Shown: positions 18,526 to 42,088 of the stretch, in pieces | Layout: each line of letters begins with the position of its first letter | Position numbering within the stretch: position 1 is the stretch's first letter | Assembly: GCA_022567695.1 (NCBI GenBank) | Contig: JADFGN010000003.1 | Location: forward strand, 1 to 42,872 | DNA: 42,872 nt | Source: Candidatus Poribacteria bacterium | GTDB lineage: Bacteria > Poribacteria > WGA-4E > PCPOR2b | Direction: 5' to 3' | The notes under the pieces: generated by a model | What the model saw: the letters and a program-made list of their open reading frames with translations, nothing else | What the model was told of the DNA's origin: nothing | The model's database searches: none | Program-made: the position numbers and the translations under genes

Positions 18526-19047
18526 TTGTTATTAAAGCAGAAAATAAACACAGATGAATTTGAATTTGAGGAGCGCCCAATCCCAAATTCTATTAAGCGT
18601 GTGACAAAAGTCACAAAGGGGGGAAGAAGTATTAGTTTCAACGTTCTTTCAGTTGTTGGAAACCATGCTGGTATTGTTGGGCTTGGATTTGGTAGTGCAA
18701 ACGATATTCCTTCAGCTATCAGTAAAAGCATTGCTGATGCCAAGAAAAACCTGATTCATGTGCCTTTGTCAGATGGTACGATTCCCCACGAAATTACTTG
18801 TGTTTTTAAATCCGCGAGAGTTTTGTTAAAGCCAGCCAGTTCTGGTACAGGTATTATTGCCGGACTTGCAACAAAGATTATATTGGAGCTTGCAGGCATT
18901 CAAGATGTATTAACGAAACGTCTTGGATCTCGAAATGTAAAAAATATAGCCGAAGCAACGATGCTAGGGTTAAGAAACTTGAAAGACGTTCACGAAGTTG
19001 CACATCTTCGTGGAAAGACAGTTGAGGAATTTACAAGTCAAAGGTGA
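18526..19047 (+). CDS. rpsE: 30S ribosomal protein S5
   Basis: Small-subunit fidelity protein on the back of the decoding centre. 173 aa. Seen: the dsRNA-binding-like segment RVTKVTKGGRSISFNVLSVV, GHAG-like GNHAGIVGLGFGSANDIPSA, then ARVLLKPASSGTGIIAG, ELAGIQDVLTKRLGSRN and ATMLGLRNL. The central GNHAGIVGLGFG differs from the common GDGNGRVGFGLGK. It starts at TTG 18526 after AAGGAG. The next gene is rplO; rpmD is missing in between. Confidence 0.95.
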   Translation: MLLKQKINTDEFEFEERPIPNSIKRVTKVTKGGRSISFNVLSVVGNHAGIVGLGFGSANDIPSAISKSIADAKKNLIHVPLSDGTIPHEITCVFKSARVLLKPASSGTGIIAGLATKIILELAGIQDVLTKRLGSRNVKNIAEATMLGLRNLKDVHEVAHLRGKTVEEFTSQR

Positions 19048-19117
19048 CAGTGTGGTTCAACAATGAGTTGAGGAATAGTTTAGCAGTCATCAACAACGAT
19101 TCAAAGGAATGAAGCAA

Positions 19118-19570
19118 ATGTCAATGAAACTCAACGAACTGAAACCCGCCAAAAATTCAAACCGTCGCAGAAAAAGAGTTGGGCGCGGGGAGGCTTCAGG
19201 TTGGGGAAAAACGTGTGGGCGTGGTCACAAAGGACAGAAGTCTCGGTCGGGTGGATCGATTCCTGCTTGGTTTGAAGGTGGTCAGATGCCCTTAGTGAGG
19301 CGTCTTCCTAAGCGCGGCCCAAGAAGGATTGCGCATAAACGCATTGAGTATGATATCGTCAATATCAAAACGCTTAATTGCTTTGATAACGGAATAACTA
19401 TTACTCCCGAAGTACTCCGCCAAGCTGGAATTATCAAGAGTAATAGCGTAAGAATAAAGATCCTCGGAGAGGGAGACCTTGATAAGCAATTAACAGTTCG
19501 TGTCCACGGATTTTCAAAATCCGCTATTGAAAAAATAGAATCAACTGGAGGCAAAGCCGAGGTGGTTTAA
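19118..19570 (+). CDS. rplO: 50S ribosomal protein L15
   Basis: Late-assembly large-subunit protein. About 150 aa. Seen: KLNELKPAKNSNRRRKRVGR, GEASGWGKTCGRGHKGQKSR, SGGSIPAWFEGGQMPLVRRL, PKRGPRR and the C-terminal VRVHGFSKSAIEKIESTGGK. I choose ATG 19118, 9 nt after AAGGA; the in-frame ATG at 19109 abuts that SD. The secY GTG follows the stop directly, so coupling is likely. Confidence 0.95.
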   Translation: MSMKLNELKPAKNSNRRRKRVGRGEASGWGKTCGRGHKGQKSRSGGSIPAWFEGGQMPLVRRLPKRGPRRIAHKRIEYDIVNIKTLNCFDNGITITPEVLRQAGIIKSNSVRIKILGEGDLDKQLTVRVHGFSKSAIEKIESTGGKAEVV

Positions 19571-20911
19571 GTGATCAAGGCAATTCAGAACGCTTTCAAA
19601 ATTCCAGAGTTACGGAAGCGCATAATTTTTACGGCACTACTGTTGATTGTTTATCGGTTAGGTGCTCATATCACGCTCCCTGGGATTTCTGACCAGGCTT
19701 TAGAGGAATTTTTTAACGAATTAAAAGATCGCCCCGGTGGAAATGTAATTGGCTTTGTCGATCTCTTTTCAGGCGGGGCGTTCAGCCAGATGACAATTTT
19801 TGCGCTTGGCATTCAGCCGTATATTAGCGCATCGATCGTCATGCAACTTCTTGCCGTTGTGATTCCTTCGCTAGAGAAACTTTCTAAGGAGCCAGACGGG
19901 CGTAAGAAAATTACTCAATATACTCGCTATGGCACCGTCTTACTCAGCATCGTGCAAGGAATAGCAATTAGCTTTGTATTGAGAAACTCCCAAGGTCTCA
20001 TAGGTCAATCAACACCCATTGTAGCGAATCCAACGCTCTGGTGGCACCTCTTAGTTATGATTACTTTGATGGCAGGTACCTCGTTTGTGATGTGGCTTGG
20101 TGAACAAATAACGGAGAGAGGAATTGGGCAAGGTATTTCATTGATTATTACGGTTGGAATTGTCTCCGCTGCACCGGGAGGCGTATCTAATATTATCAGT
20201 CGTTTGATTAGTGCCGACGCAGCTGGTTTAAGCCTTCCACAGTTGGCCATCTTTTTAGCCTTGATTGTTGTTGCTATCATGGGCACGGTGTTTATCCAAC
20301 TATCTACTCGTAAAATTCCTGTTCAGTATGCACGGCGCGTTGTAGGGCGTAAGGTACTCGGTGGACAAACCACCCATATACCTCTAAAGGTCAATGCAGC
20401 CGGTATGATTCCAATTATTTTCGCGGTAACTTTAATGCAGTTTCCCCCAACCGTGTTAGGATTTTTGCCGCAATGGGGGTGGGTTATTGGGTTGCAAAGT
20501 GCTTTCGGTCCCGCCAGTCCTTTGTATATGATTTTTTATGCAACTTTGATTATTGGCTTTACCTATTTTTACACCGCTGTGCAGATTAATCCCGTTCAGA
20601 TGGCTGATGACTTAAGAAAATATGGCGGATTTATTCCGGGGATTCGCCCCGGTAAACGAACAGCGGACTATATCAATGACACTTTGACCAGAATTACTTT
20701 ACCCGGTGCGCTTTTTCTTGCTGGCATTGCGGTGATTCCTATGATTTTTGAAGGTTGGTTAAAGATTGGCACAATGGTCAGTGGGGCATCGGTTCTGATT
20801 GTTGTGGGCGTTGTGCTGGACACTGTGTCACAGATTGAATCCTACCTAACGATGAGGCACTATGAGGGATTCTTGAAAGACAGACGTGTCAGGGGACGCC
20901 GAACAAGATAA
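19571..20911 (+). CDS. secY: Preprotein translocase subunit SecY
   Basis: Central pore of the Sec translocon in the inner membrane. 446 aa with about ten hydrophobic segments. Seen: PELRKRIIFTALLLIVYRLG with the plug/TM1 region, FSGGAFSQMTIFALGIQPYI, GRKKITQYTRYGT, the cytosolic loop RKIPVQYARRVVG and HIPLKVNAAGMIPIIFA, then FIPGIRPGKRTADYI. GTG 19571 begins at the base after the rplO TAA, with GAGGTGG as SD. adk, map and infA, common downstream, are absent; rpmJ follows after 118 nt. Confidence 0.97.
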   Translation: MIKAIQNAFKIPELRKRIIFTALLLIVYRLGAHITLPGISDQALEEFFNELKDRPGGNVIGFVDLFSGGAFSQMTIFALGIQPYISASIVMQLLAVVIPSLEKLSKEPDGRKKITQYTRYGTVLLSIVQGIAISFVLRNSQGLIGQSTPIVANPTLWWHLLVMITLMAGTSFVMWLGEQITERGIGQGISLIITVGIVSAAPGGVSNIISRLISADAAGLSLPQLAIFLALIVVAIMGTVFIQLSTRKIPVQYARRVVGRKVLGGQTTHIPLKVNAAGMIPIIFAVTLMQFPPTVLGFLPQWGWVIGLQSAFGPASPLYMIFYATLIIGFTYFYTAVQINPVQMADDLRKYGGFIPGIRPGKRTADYINDTLTRITLPGALFLAGIAVIPMIFEGWLKIGTMVSGASVLIVVGVVLDTVSQIESYLTMRHYEGFLKDRRVRGRRTR

Positions 20912-32912: not shown

Positions 32913-35900
32913 TTATTTCCAAGGCTCCCCTTCAATCTGCAATGTCGTCGGTGTTTTGACTTTGATGATATACGCCTGCCCACCGACAATAGGTAAATCT
33001 CCTGTCACGGTGTTGAGATCTATTTCCGGATCAAAGCGATTGAACCGCTGGCCATCATAACTAAAGATTTCCTCGACGTTCCCAAGAAGTTCAGGCAGTT
33101 GTACCAAATCGCGGATACGAGACAAATCATCGCTCTGCAACGGCAACCCCGCAAGATTTATTCCGGCCTCGAGCGAAACAACTCCTTCCGGGGCGTCACC
33201 GCGAAGTTTAAGAGTGACGGAGTGCTTCATGATAGCGATTACCCCCGTGTGTGGTGCAAGCGGAATGTTGGCGGCAAGGGCATCGAGAGCCGTTGCGTGT
33301 TCAATCTCGAATTGGGAAAAGGTCTGAAAGCGTTCCTTCTGACTGTTGTAGGTAATGAGTTGGTGAACATTTTCGTCCCCACCGAGGACGTCGTAAAGAT
33401 CGCTGATGCGCTCCATCTGGCGCGGCAGATCATTGATGTGGGTAATTAGAAGGGGGAGATGACGGAGACTAATACCTTCAGGGAATTCAAGCTGGAATTC
33501 ATGAAACGTCGGTACGGGAGTTTCGCCGCCGAATTCGTATGCGCCGATGTCTACCGCAACACCAGCAATTCGCCCCACGCCATCAAGATCGAACTCAGGC
33601 AAATCGGCGGTATTACTGTCTCCTGCATTGATTGCTGGCGAATCGGGGCTCAGTCGAAAATCATCGCCTGCTGCATCCACAAACCGTGGGGCACCGCCGA
33701 TATTGCCGTCACGCCCGATGAACGACACATCCGATAAGAACGAATGACGAATAAAACTATCGGCAGTTGCCTGGCTGAAGTTTGCGACATCGGTCTGATT
33801 CTCTGCAAAGAGGGTATTCACCACTTCAACCTTCGGTGTGCGGACCTGCTCAAAGACCAGCAAACCAACGTTGTTAAAGGCAATGGTATTGTTGATTAAA
33901 CGTCCTGAACTGCCTTGCAACACGACGCCGTGTCCGTCCGTATTCTGGCTACGACTGATGAGGTTGTTAATCAGGATGACTTGGGGGGACGTTAAAACGA
34001 AAATCCCTGCGCCGTTGCGGCTCACGACATTATCGTGAATCAGGATAGTGTCGGTTGCGCCAGAAATCACGACGCCTGTATTCTGATTATCTGTAATGGT
34101 GTTTCCGATTAGGTCAACATTAGAGCCGTTCTGAGCGGCGATACCATTGCCCCCATTTTTGCCAATGGTATTTCCTTCAGCATGGACATCCGATTCGAGA
34201 ATCAACACACCTACCGTCCCACTCTCTTCGATGGTGTTATCCTTCAGCATCACTGGTTGGGGTGCCCCAGAAATCACCACACCGTGATCGGACTGTTGGT
34301 TCGCATCCCCGTCATCATTGGTCACGATTGTGTTGTCAGCGATTGTTCCCGTTGTTCCATCCCATTGCACACCACTTCCCTTATTCTGCGAGATTGTATT
34401 CCCGATTAGGTCGCCGACCGAATTGCTACAGAAAATTCCGCCTGTTCCGTTAGAGAGGAGGCGGTTGTTCTGAATCGTAAATTCGGCGTTACTCTGAATG
34501 CTGATACCTCTTTCCGCATTTTCGGCAATCTCATTTTCGGTGAGCGTGACTATCGAGCCGGAGACCACCACTCCAGTGGCGAGAGTTTGCACAATCCGAT
34601 TATTTATCAGCGTCGCTTCAGAGCCGTCCTGAATGAAAATGGAGTTGCCGTTTCGTTGTACATCGTTATCGTTGATAGTTGCTGTGGAAGCCAACACAGC
34701 GATTGCCGCATCGCGGTTGTCCGTAATCTGATTCTCCCGAATCGTGGCTTCAGAGTTATTTTGAACCGTCACGCCATTTTGCGCGTTTCGGATATGGTTA
34801 CTTTCAATCATTGCCTTAGAAGCATCTGTGATCAAAATACCACTTTGAGAACTTTCAATAACGCTTTCTCGGATTGTGACATCAGCCCCATCCTGTACAA
34901 ACACGCCCTCACGGACATTCAGATTTTCTAGTGTCAAGCCGATCGAGCCAAAAGTCACGATGGTTGCGAGAGTGGGTTGACTACCAGAAGCAGAAACGAG
35001 CGAAATAAAATTCTCTAGAATTTGCACGGTTTCATTGTAGTTTCCGTTATCGATCAATTCAATCCGATCGCGTGGTAGTGCCTGTTGCAAAGCAGCAGCG
35101 ATTGAGGTGAAATCTGCGCCTCCGCTCTGCGCAATACGAAGGGTTTGCCCAACGCGAGTCTCGGAAAAAACGGAAAATTCTTTCAGTTCCGCCTCCCCCT
35201 GCCGATCGACCACGCCGATTGCCAAACGGTGGGCATCCCCACCAGCTAACCTGGTGTAGGAAAACTCGACCGTCGCATTTTGCCCGTTTAGCGACACGCA
35301 ATTTTGGACCTCTGGCGAACCCACGGCTGCCGCGCGATCGCCTTCATTTGCAAAGTCGGTTGTAATCGGCAGAAACTGGGCTTGATGAAGCCCGTCCGAA
35401 TCGCTTAATTCGACACGAATGGTGATTGAGCTGGCACCGGACGGATACTCAAATGGAGATATGATGCGAATCGAAGGCTCTGCTTCGCTAACAAATACTC
35501 CCCCAGGATTGAAGAAACGGTTGACATCCAGAAGTTCAGCGCTGCATGCGGAAAGACGGTCTGGGCTATCACCGTAGGACATGATGAATGCGTCATCATT
35601 GAAATCGTGTTGCAATCCAAAAGCGTGTCCGAGTTCATGCGTCACTGTGACAAAATCAAAATGGAGACCGGAGGCGGGAACGTACGCCACACCACCATTT
35701 GGGCCTTTAGGACCGCCCACACCACCTGCACCGTTAATGACCTCATCGCTCACATCAACAGCAACAAGGTAGATATTGTCCTCCAGCGAAAACTGTGTTT
35801 CAATTTCGACCTCGACGTTGTCGCTGGTGTTTGCACCTCGGTAGTGGCTGTCAGGAAACTGACCGTCGACGGGGTGAACAATCGCTTGTCCCAACGTATC

Positions 35901-36221
35901 AGTCTCAAAGGCGAAGGTCTTGCGACCAAACCCGTGTGCTTGCATTTCATCGGCGTAAAAGGCTTGTGCATTTCTAATCAGCGCATCCAACTGTATTGGA
36001 ACTTCTGGCAGAAATGAGCGGTCGCTCGGAATAAAATAGATCAACCGAACCACAAACGGATCGACGGCTGCAAGGCGATTAAACTGATAGGGTTTCCGCT
36101 CGTCTGCGCGGAACCGGTAAAAAGGCAACGGTTTACATCTGAACGCCTGTTGCGCCGGAACAAGATGAATTGGTATCAATATAAATGCAAGTGATAAGCA
36201 CAGAGATCGAAAGTAACTCAT
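32913..36221 (-). CDS. Secreted zinc metalloprotease / right-handed beta-helix protein
   Basis: 1102 aa. Signal peptide MSYFRSLCLSLAFILIPIHL...AQQ. Residues 195-205 hold the zincin motif HELGHAFGLQHD (ligands H195, H199, H205; base E196) with a Met-turn IMSYG, so the N-terminal part is a metzincin-type protease. An Ig-like segment follows, then from about residue 390 to 860 many parallel-helix coils (IRNAQNGVTVQNNSEATIRE style) of the NosD/pectate-lyase kind. The C-terminus has two related units of about 90 residues, starting near FPEGISLRHLPL and VVSLEAGINLAGLPLQ. ATG 36221 is preferred over 36284 because AGGAGA precedes it and the signal peptide begins there. Likely a surface or extracellular glycan- or protein-binding enzyme. 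Confidence 0.85.
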   Translation of the reverse strand: MSYFRSLCLSLAFILIPIHLVPAQQAFRCKPLPFYRFRADERKPYQFNRLAAVDPFVVRLIYFIPSDRSFLPEVPIQLDALIRNAQAFYADEMQAHGFGRKTFAFETDTLGQAIVHPVDGQFPDSHYRGANTSDNVEVEIETQFSLEDNIYLVAVDVSDEVINGAGGVGGPKGPNGGVAYVPASGLHFDFVTVTHELGHAFGLQHDFNDDAFIMSYGDSPDRLSACSAELLDVNRFFNPGGVFVSEAEPSIRIISPFEYPSGASSITIRVELSDSDGLHQAQFLPITTDFANEGDRAAAVGSPEVQNCVSLNGQNATVEFSYTRLAGGDAHRLAIGVVDRQGEAELKEFSVFSETRVGQTLRIAQSGGADFTSIAAALQQALPRDRIELIDNGNYNETVQILENFISLVSASGSQPTLATIVTFGSIGLTLENLNVREGVFVQDGADVTIRESVIESSQSGILITDASKAMIESNHIRNAQNGVTVQNNSEATIRENQITDNRDAAIAVLASTATINDNDVQRNGNSIFIQDGSEATLINNRIVQTLATGVVVSGSIVTLTENEIAENAERGISIQSNAEFTIQNNRLLSNGTGGIFCSNSVGDLIGNTISQNKGSGVQWDGTTGTIADNTIVTNDDGDANQQSDHGVVISGAPQPVMLKDNTIEESGTVGVLILESDVHAEGNTIGKNGGNGIAAQNGSNVDLIGNTITDNQNTGVVISGATDTILIHDNVVSRNGAGIFVLTSPQVILINNLISRSQNTDGHGVVLQGSSGRLINNTIAFNNVGLLVFEQVRTPKVEVVNTLFAENQTDVANFSQATADSFIRHSFLSDVSFIGRDGNIGGAPRFVDAAGDDFRLSPDSPAINAGDSNTADLPEFDLDGVGRIAGVAVDIGAYEFGGETPVPTFHEFQLEFPEGISLRHLPLLITHINDLPRQMERISDLYDVLGGDENVHQLITYNSQKERFQTFSQFEIEHATALDALAANIPLAPHTGVIAIMKHSVTLKLRGDAPEGVVSLEAGINLAGLPLQSDDLSRIRDLVQLPELLGNVEEIFSYDGQRFNRFDPEIDLNTVTGDLPIVGGQAYIIKVKTPTTLQIEGEPWK

Positions 36222-36270
36222 TAAATTTCTCCTGATGATAACGTTGATCGTATCTGAGTCCGTGTTGGAA

Positions 36271-36290
36271 CCGAATTTTTGCAAATTCGG
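36271..36290. promoter_or_regulatory. Perfect palindrome in a divergent promoter region
   Basis: CCGAATTT (36271-36278) and AAATTCGG (36283-36290) with a 4-nt centre, between the start of the minus-strand protease gene and the plus-strand small gene. It could be an operator or a small hairpin. No clear -35/-10 pair flanks it. Confidence 0.4.
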
Positions 36291-40322: not shown

Positions 40323-41096
40323 ATGAAAGGGCTATCGTTTATTCTACTTTCAATGGGTTTAGTAGTCGTTGGATTGACGAGCCACGCGGTCGAAGAAGGG
40401 GACATTCTTCTCTACTATTCGTTTGACAAAATGAATGGGAAAACAGTCAAAGATGATTCCGGCAATGGTCATGACGCAGAGCTTGTTGGAAGTGGTAAGC
40501 TCGTCAATGGAAAATTCAATAAAGCGATTCAGCTGGACGGTGGCATCGTACAGATGAACAAAAGGGATGTCATTTCGTCCGTTGGCAAAACGGGTGAAAT
40601 CACGCTGGAATCGTGGATATTCTTGAATAACCATGCCTCGTATGACGGAATCATCTCGATTGAAGCGCCCGAGGGGGACTGCTGTGAATTTCGCACGATG
40701 ATCGATCCAAATTTCAACCCGTTCTGGGATGCCGGTCATCATGTTGATAAAAAGTTGGTGGACTTCAAGTTTGAACTGAAAAAATGGTATCATTACGTTT
40801 TAGTTGCCGATGGAAAAGATGGCAAGATTTATATCAACGGTGAGTTCATCGGTGAACAGCGGGAGAACTTCGATCTCCCGGAATTCAAAGAGGTAACGAT
40901 TTACATCGGTGCCGGCGAAAATCCGAATGTCCATAAAGTCGAAGACGCCATCATTGATGAAGTCGTAATCTACAACAAGGCGTTGACCGAAAAAGAAATT
41001 CAGGCATCAATGGAACTCAGCGTTCCCGGCGTTCTTTCCGTAGAACCGCAAGGCAAGTTAGCTGTCAAGTGGGGAGAAATTAAATCAAACCGTTAA
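40323..41096 (+). CDS. Secreted LamG-like jellyroll protein
   Basis: 257 aa. Signal peptide MKGLSFILLSMGLVVVGLTS, cleaved near AVEEG. The remainder is one LamG/concanavalin-like domain: LLYYSFDKMNGKTVKDDSGN, AIQLDGGIVQM, ITLESWIFLNN, KWYHYVLVADGKDGKIYING, and AIIDEVVIYNKALTEKEIQA, the last being the usual end of LamG domains in environmental bacteria. The final 18 residues (VEPQGKLAVKWGEIKSNR) lie beyond the domain and resemble the tail of the next gene's product. A glycan-binding surface role is likely. AGGAGGT precedes ATG 40323. Confidence 0.85.
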   Translation: MKGLSFILLSMGLVVVGLTSHAVEEGDILLYYSFDKMNGKTVKDDSGNGHDAELVGSGKLVNGKFNKAIQLDGGIVQMNKRDVISSVGKTGEITLESWIFLNNHASYDGIISIEAPEGDCCEFRTMIDPNFNPFWDAGHHVDKKLVDFKFELKKWYHYVLVADGKDGKIYINGEFIGEQRENFDLPEFKEVTIYIGAGENPNVHKVEDAIIDEVVIYNKALTEKEIQASMELSVPGVLSVEPQGKLAVKWGEIKSNR

Positions 41097-41105
41097 CACG
41101 CTTTT

Positions 41106-41144
41106 AAGCCCATATCGACTCAATCGGTTGGTATGGGCTTTTTT
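41106..41144 (+). terminator. Intrinsic terminator after the LamG gene
   Basis: AAGCCCATA (41106-41114) / TATGGGCTT (41132-41140) with a 17-nt loop, then TTTT and an AT-rich tail. It lies 10 nt after the LamG stop, so the next gene probably has its own promoter or depends on read-through. Confidence 0.85.
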
Positions 41145-41173
41145 ATATTTTGAGTAAAGATCGGTAAGGAACA

Positions 41174-42088
41174 ATGAAGATATTTACTTTCTTCTTATGT
41201 GCCATTTTCATGTTTGGCAGTATGCTCAAAAGTTTTGGAGCAGAAGCGTTGCCCCAAACGATTATCAGCCCAATCGATGGCGTTCCCATGGCTTTAATCC
41301 CGGCGAGCGAATTCTTGAGAGGAACAACCCAGGCTCAACTTGACGGCATTTTACGCATTGATCCATCTTTAGAATCTGAGTCGCTTGAAGATGAGCAACC
41401 CGCTCGTTGGATCTATTTGGATGACTACTACATCGACAAATATGAAGTGACCGTTAGGCGGTACCGAAAGTTTATCGGGGCCACGGGATACCCCGAACCC
41501 GATTGGGTTTCAATTCGCTACTTTTCTCCAACTGACAACCACCCGGTCACCTATGTCAGTTGGGAAGATGCAGTGGCCTATGCAGAATGGGCAGGGAAGT
41601 CCCTAGTGACGGAAGCCCAGTGGGAGAAGGCAGCACGTGGTGGGTTGGAAGGCAAACTATACCCCTGGGGAGATGAATTAACCCGCGAAGATGCAAACTA
41701 TCTCGGTGTCGAGGGCCGTGATAAGTGGGACTTGACAACCTCGCCTGTCGGCAGTTTTCCGCCAAACGGCTACGACATATATGATATGGCTGGCAACGTG
41801 CTCGAGTGGATATTGGACTGGTACGATGCGGATTACTATCAGTACTGCCCCAAGGAGAATCCTGTCAATTTAACACCGACGCGCTTTCGCGTTATGCGTG
41901 GCGGCGCGTGGTGCTTTGAAGATGAAGGGTTACGTTGTGCAAGTCGCTTCATTGAGAACCCGCTGTTCAGAGGTGCTGATCGCGAGGGTTTTCGCTGTGT
42001 TTTGAATGTTTCTCAAGGTTCAGTGCCCGTTGAGCCAACGGGAAGGCTTGCCACCACTTGGGGGACAATCAAAAAGGTGAGAAATTAA
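41174..42088 (+). CDS. Secreted FGE-sulfatase (SUMF1/FGE-fold) domain protein
   Basis: 304 aa. Signal peptide MKIFTFFLCAIFMFGSMLKS, cleaved after about FGA. The domain shows PMALIPASEFLRGTT, IYLDDYYIDKYEVTVRRYRK, HPVTYVSWEDAVAYAEWAGK, LVTEAQWEKAARGG, YPWGDELTREDANY, YDIYDMAGNVLEWILDWYD, and FRVMRGGAWCFEDEGLRCAS with GFRCV. These are FGE-fold hallmarks. The CxxxxC pair needed for formylglycine formation in SUMF1 is not at its expected spacing, so it is probably not a sulfatase activator. The C-terminal 19 residues (VEPTGRLATTWGTIKKVRN) match the tail of the upstream LamG protein. Confidence 0.85.
   Translation: MKIFTFFLCAIFMFGSMLKSFGAEALPQTIISPIDGVPMALIPASEFLRGTTQAQLDGILRIDPSLESESLEDEQPARWIYLDDYYIDKYEVTVRRYRKFIGATGYPEPDWVSIRYFSPTDNHPVTYVSWEDAVAYAEWAGKSLVTEAQWEKAARGGLEGKLYPWGDELTREDANYLGVEGRDKWDLTTSPVGSFPPNGYDIYDMAGNVLEWILDWYDADYYQYCPKENPVNLTPTRFRVMRGGAWCFEDEGLRCASRFIENPLFRGADREGFRCVLNVSQGSVPVEPTGRLATTWGTIKKVRN

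Follow-up and report, generated by a model that had tools for sequence, protein, structure and literature searches.

A short conserved C-terminal tag on exported proteins of Poribacteria and its probable role as a sorting or docking signal

Many exported proteins of Poribacteria end in a conserved tail of approximately 20 residues, roughly VxPxGKLATTWGxIK in its short form, which is carried by dozens to more than 100 unrelated exported proteins per genome. Its conservation and distribution indicate that the tail probably acts as a signal, phylum-wide and largely phylum-specific, by which Sec-exported proteins are sorted or docked, and it looks like an undescribed address label of the cell envelope. 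Poribacteria live in association with sponges or freely and are known chiefly through genomes of uncultured cells; the genomes analysed here are MAGs of mixed completeness. Sorting tags at the C-terminus have more than once pointed the way to novel enzymes of secretion and anchoring, namely sortase, exosortase, rhombosortase and myxosortase. The present tag occurs throughout a candidate phylum that includes sponge-associated as well as other bacteria, has an architecture unlike that of sortase-type signals and offers a handle for finding its receptor. A substantial share of the proteins that Poribacteria export bears the tag, and the adhesin-like LamG and kelch proteins among them are candidate points of contact with the sponge host.

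The tag was noticed at the ends of two neighbouring genes in the window, a stretch of 42,872 nucleotides from Candidatus Poribacteria bacterium (contig JADFGN010000003.1 of assembly GCA_022567695.1). Both open reading frames (ORFs) and both tails were confirmed in the sequence, with the motif at the two C-termini where the initial annotation had placed it (Table 1). The carrier domains are unrelated, as had been claimed, one being a Laminin_G_3 and the other an FGE-sulfatase domain, and the two proteins have in common a hydrophobic N-terminal segment resembling a signal peptide. The reported identity of 11 out of 15 tag residues has to be lowered to 10 on a strict count, and is reached only if a K/R pair is taken as a match. 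At the DNA level, 26 of the 45 nucleotides are identical, and among the 10 identical residues the codons match only at the tryptophan, which has a single codon, and at the last lysine. The likeness thus resides in the protein and does not reflect a DNA repeat. Elsewhere in the window (32913-36284, minus strand) a 1123-residue protein combines a peptidase-like N-terminal part, beta-helix repeats and a choice-of-anchor Q domain with a C-terminal module of about 200 residues that has no family match and ends in GEPWK.

Table 1. Coordinates of the tagged pair in the window and of type IX-like genes
Feature	Position	Strand	Basis
LamG (concanavalin A-like) protein, 257 aa	40323..41096	+	ORF; Laminin_G_3 E 3.6e-17; AF2 jelly roll
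Signal peptide of LamG protein (approximate end)	40323..40391	+	MKGLSFILLSMGLVVVGLTSHAV; AF2 helix 4-21
C-terminal tag VEPQGKLAVKWGEIK + tail SNR	41040..41093	+	profile match E 1.6e-12 among window ORFs; VEPQGKLAVKWGEIK at 41040-41084, then SNR and stop
FGE-sulfatase-domain protein, 304 aa	41174..42088	+	ORF; FGE-sulfatase E 3.3e-58
Signal peptide of FGE-like protein (approximate end)	41174..41242	+	MKIFTFFLCAIFMFGSMLKSFGA
C-terminal tag VEPTGRLATTWGTIK + tail KVRN	42029..42085	+	profile match E 4e-11 among window ORFs; VEPTGRLATTWGTIK at 42029-42073, then KVRN and stop
SprA-like translocon, PorU-like C25 peptidase, PorV-family protein	G000:C143:2030-8416 (L248), G000:C194:11492-17779 + 18779-19855 (L250)

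A strict DNA pattern ([KR]-L-[AST]-x-x-W-G-x-I-[KR]) has 65 matches in the 7.3 Mb home genome, while the reversed pattern used as a control has none, so the shared motif is not due to chance. Across the phylum the strict pattern is present in 82 of 85 genomes and its reverse in none. The three remaining genomes (G064, G065 and G067) gave 59, 111 and 54 matches, respectively, with a profile of the tag; those of G064 and G065 were read and are genuine C-terminal tags in which leucine or methionine replaces the isoleucine (W[GA]x[LM]K), those of G067 being counted only. Since tails with WA, WS or WGxLK also exist, the strict counts are too low, and in the home genome the profile search returned at least 150 matches. 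The f7 family (G064-G069) had been considered as a tag-free contrast set and was discarded, as the four f7 genomes tested hold 54-138 profile matches, and the ones inspected proved to be real tags bearing L or M instead of I. In a wider but tag-rich scan of GTDB genomes, 79 of the 80 loci among the matches listed carry the title Poribacteria and one Deltaproteobacteria, and on these matches the tag is restricted to Poribacteria at least to a very large extent. The exception by title (L107:2639-2683, minus strand) is a tag in a shifted frame that overlaps the stop of an esterase ORF, on a contig whose aminoacyl-tRNA synthetase-like ORF is just distantly similar to poribacterial ones.

The position of the tag is nearly constant. 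Among all loci fetched by then, 273 of the 274 ORFs matching a relaxed motif have it at the C-terminus, and in 20 regions from four genomes (G000, G005, G064 and G065) every profile match with E <0.05 ends no more than seven residues from the stop. The single non-C-terminal case (L010:1414-2406, plus strand) has the motif directly behind an N-terminal signal peptide; this orphan protein belongs to no Pfam family and, as 13 other Poribacteria genomes hold no homologue of it, is regarded as an oddity. The tags of the home genome align as xxxxxLxVxPxGKLATTWGxIKxxx, and the full pattern reads [LA][AS]V-[ED]-P-x-G-K-L-[AT]-T-T-W-[GA]-x-[ILM]-K followed by mostly basic residues, usually two to four and most commonly three after the final lysine. 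The W, G and I do not vary at all and the K hardly does, while the codons differ; W-G and I were fixed by the search pattern, which did not demand P-x-G or the V at position -5, and this V is nearly invariant although absent from the pattern. Only one of 285 tagged proteins has a hydrophobic stretch near the tag (19 residues with a Kyte-Doolittle value >1.6, within the last 70 residues), which bears out the remark in the initial annotation that no such segment accompanies it. Within the first 25 families listed for full-length proteins, no Pfam or NCBIfam model covers the tag, and none of the NCBIfam entries there is a C-terminal tag model. An NCBIfam scan of 63 tails gave a single chance match, to a spore protein (E 0.059), a PDB search with the tag profile gave one weak match (E 0.2), and a text search of a literature collection with core strings of the motif retrieved no paper containing them.

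Once stripped of the tag, 257 carrier proteins fall into 34 single-linkage clusters without detectable mutual similarity, which contain LamG, kelch, PD40 and FGE proteins as well as unassigned folds. The largest cluster, that of the LamG proteins, accounts for 154 of the 257 and thus for more than half of the carriers, so part of the tag count reflects duplication. Outside the tag these LamG proteins are about 20-30% identical to the window protein, and the tag core is conserved. A signal peptide or N-terminal membrane segment was predicted in 241 of 260 tagged ORFs; among untagged ORFs with a length of 150 residues or more in these loci, the count was 154 of 506 (odds ratio 29, p 2e-67). The fractions are approximate, as the predictor is simple and home-made and picks among start codons, and both sets were handled alike. 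Because related carriers are not independent, the p value overstates the evidence, and a firmer basis is that the carriers spread over 34 clusters. The genome-wide search suggested in the initial annotation has therefore returned many matches that are nearly all C-terminal and strongly enriched in signal-peptide proteins. Neither of the refuting outcomes named there, a motif limited to the two window genes or one found in cytoplasmic proteins too, was obtained. At three loci (L027, L040 and L052) a single ORF joins an ECF sigma factor, one membrane segment, kelch repeats and the C-terminal tag, an order by which the tag would lie beyond the inner membrane, on a protein that appears to stay anchored in it.

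With regard to structure, AF2 modelling of the LamG protein from the window, with 58 relatives, shows a confident jelly roll, a linker (residues 236-246) with a pLDDT below 50 and then the tag as a separate low-confidence helix (residues 246-256, pLDDT of about 67) that is not packed in the fold. A fold search with this model returned generic concanavalin A-like matches. A second AF2 model, of an unrelated fold with seven sequences, had a mean pLDDT of 48 and was too poor to inform on the tag. It can safely be stated, as modelled in the LamG protein, that the tag is predicted to be a peptide apart from the folded domain. The hydrophobic moment at 100 degrees is 0.33 for the tags vs 0.29 for shuffled sequences, and the value at 160 degrees is higher (0.51), which does not settle whether the peptide is a helix or a strand.

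These observations would fit a pathway in which the Sec system exports a tagged protein by means of its N-terminal signal peptide, as the signal-peptide content implies, and the protein presents a folded domain, a short flexible linker and then an exposed C-terminal peptide of about 20 residues. This peptide would be read by a dedicated receptor, which might sit in the periplasm, at the outer membrane or on the outward side of the inner membrane and would deliver or dock the protein at a particular site of the envelope or surface. The sorting or anchoring tag proposed in the initial annotation stands as regards a C-terminal, signal-peptide-linked and genome-wide tag, while the sorting or anchoring itself, together with recognition by a receptor and a role in localisation, is what we infer. 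The encapsulation peptides of bacterial microcompartments and encapsulins are short terminal peptides attached through a flexible linker to either end of a cytoplasmic cargo. The tag resembles them in being a short terminal peptide behind a flexible linker, and differs in that its carriers are exported by Sec.

The initial annotation had also suggested looking for a matching secretion machinery, such as a sortase-like or type IX-like one. A study from 2014 saw type IX C-terminal domains in Poribacteria and did not find the machinery (PMC3909097). The genes now detected contradict that statement. A SprA-like translocon (SprA/Sov) was found in 84 of 85 Poribacteria genomes and in none of 14 controls, the home-genome protein (2128 residues, E 2.4e-46) scoring 157.7 bits and thus falling under the NCBI cut-off of 200. 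The PorU-like C25 peptidase of the home genome reaches 423 bits against an NCBI cut-off of 420 (Peptidase_C25, E 1e-82), with PorU-like matches in 20 of 20 genomes, and PorV-family shuttle proteins exceed the cut-off in the same proportion of genomes (20 of 20), with 8-30 matches each. Canonical type IX C-terminal domains (TIGR04183) number 26-77 per genome in eight genomes and lie on proteins other than the tagged ones. Together, the SprA, PorU-like, PorV-family and TIGR04183 matches suggest that a type IX machinery is very probably present in Poribacteria in a divergent form. The search for such a machinery has thus been successful for the phylum, but yielded no tie to the tag, and the canonical domains are on other proteins. 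Like the tag, the type IX type A domain (TIGR04183, PF18962) is a C-terminal signal on many unrelated Sec-exported proteins; both lack a membrane helix and both are present in Poribacteria. They differ in that the type A domain comprises approximately 100 residues with an Ig-like fold (PMC12618676), whereas the tag consists of about 20 residues after a short linker, disordered in the AF2 model of the LamG protein. Known type IX domains in general have about 100 residues or more. A degenerate type IX domain was accordingly considered and rejected on length and on profile comparison: an hhalign comparison of the tag with 16 poribacterial type A domains gave a probability of 0.3% and no alignment, and TIGR04183 is not among the families listed for the tagged proteins. 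As the profiles do not align and the two signals are on different proteins, the tag is not a type IX domain.

It is nonetheless possible, if tentative, that the tag takes the type IX route as a short non-canonical signal, read by a PorV-family shuttle or a PorU-like peptidase and leading to the surface. The near-universal SprA-like translocon, the PorU-like score over the cut-off, the numerous PorV-family proteins and the missing membrane helix, as in type IX domains, all speak for this route, which is made plausible by the size of the PorV-family set and by the signal specificity of shuttles in Flavobacterium, where different shuttles read different C-terminal signals (PMC12618676). Against it stand the canonical domains that the same genomes carry on other proteins, the failed profile alignment and the disparity in length. 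GldM, the motor protein, had no match in 12 genomes, though the controls of that search were equally silent. The sigma factor-kelch carriers that appear anchored in the inner membrane would also be a poor fit to a signal for crossing the outer membrane, and would be compatible with a docking peptide that retains proteins on a fixed envelope scaffold bound to peptidoglycan, periplasm or outer membrane, similar to a dockerin or a cargo peptide. Such docking is likewise a minority prospect: the flexible linker and short separate element of the AF2 model favour it, and a motif just behind a signal peptide, as in the orphan protein, would suit a binding peptide, but that case is a single protein whose homologues are absent from 13 other genomes, and no partner domain has been identified. 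A bolder reading, and a rather doubtful one, combines several of these elements into a new type of phylum-wide sorting. It would use a label of about 20 residues without a membrane helix on the dozens to more than 100 exported proteins of each genome, with a dedicated receptor perhaps evolved from the expanded PorV/PorU set, and the tagged ECF sigma factor-kelch fusions would report the state of the system to transcription.

A mere sticking of the tail to membrane or LPS, as a small peptide of basic and amphipathic character, is unlikely. Its net positive charge, its tryptophan and the spacing of L, W and I at i, i+4 and i+7 in the AF2 helix would agree with this, but at 100 degrees the moment differs little from that of shuffled tags and the one at 160 degrees exceeds it, so composition does not favour an amphipathic helix, and the strict conservation of W-[GA]-x-[ILM]-K and VxPxG is more than sticking needs. 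It is very improbable that the tail is a functionless old C-terminus, kept by inheritance among paralogues of one ancestral gene. LamG paralogues do account for over half of the tagged proteins, but the tag also occurs on the other clusters without detectable similarity, its core has been kept in LamG proteins that are otherwise divergent from the window protein, and silent positions vary. Least probable of all is a tripartite anchor signal of the sortase, exosortase or rhombosortase type. The tag shares with the MYXO-CTERM, PEP-CTERM, GlyGly-CTERM and LPXTG signals a short signature near the C-terminus of dozens of Sec-exported proteins in one lineage, followed by a basic tail. By definition, however, these signals are tripartite with a hydrophobic helix (PMC11980579), which the tag lacks. 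Only a few residues follow it where a transmembrane segment would be expected, and among the 63 tails scanned none matches a curated NCBIfam model of the class; the missing hydrophobic segment (1 of 285) excludes the tag from it.

The surroundings of the tagged genes were considered as a further lead to a sorting or docking machinery. In the loci around tags, these genes stand singly or in small scattered clusters with no machinery gene beside them, and no gene for a receptor or processing enzyme was found there. Phytanoyl-CoA dioxygenase and Gfo/Idh genes recur as neighbours without a specific link and were set aside. The multi-membrane DUF6785 genes lie beside tagged genes in tag-centred loci, yet were also rejected as machinery because of their high copy number; in the home genome about three are near a tag, which is roughly the chance level in a manual comparison by eye. 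In the nine Poribacteria genomes searched, this DUF6785/DUF6784 family numbers 8-62 copies apiece, the home genome holding 62, and the gene at L051:929-2884 represents one of many such loci.
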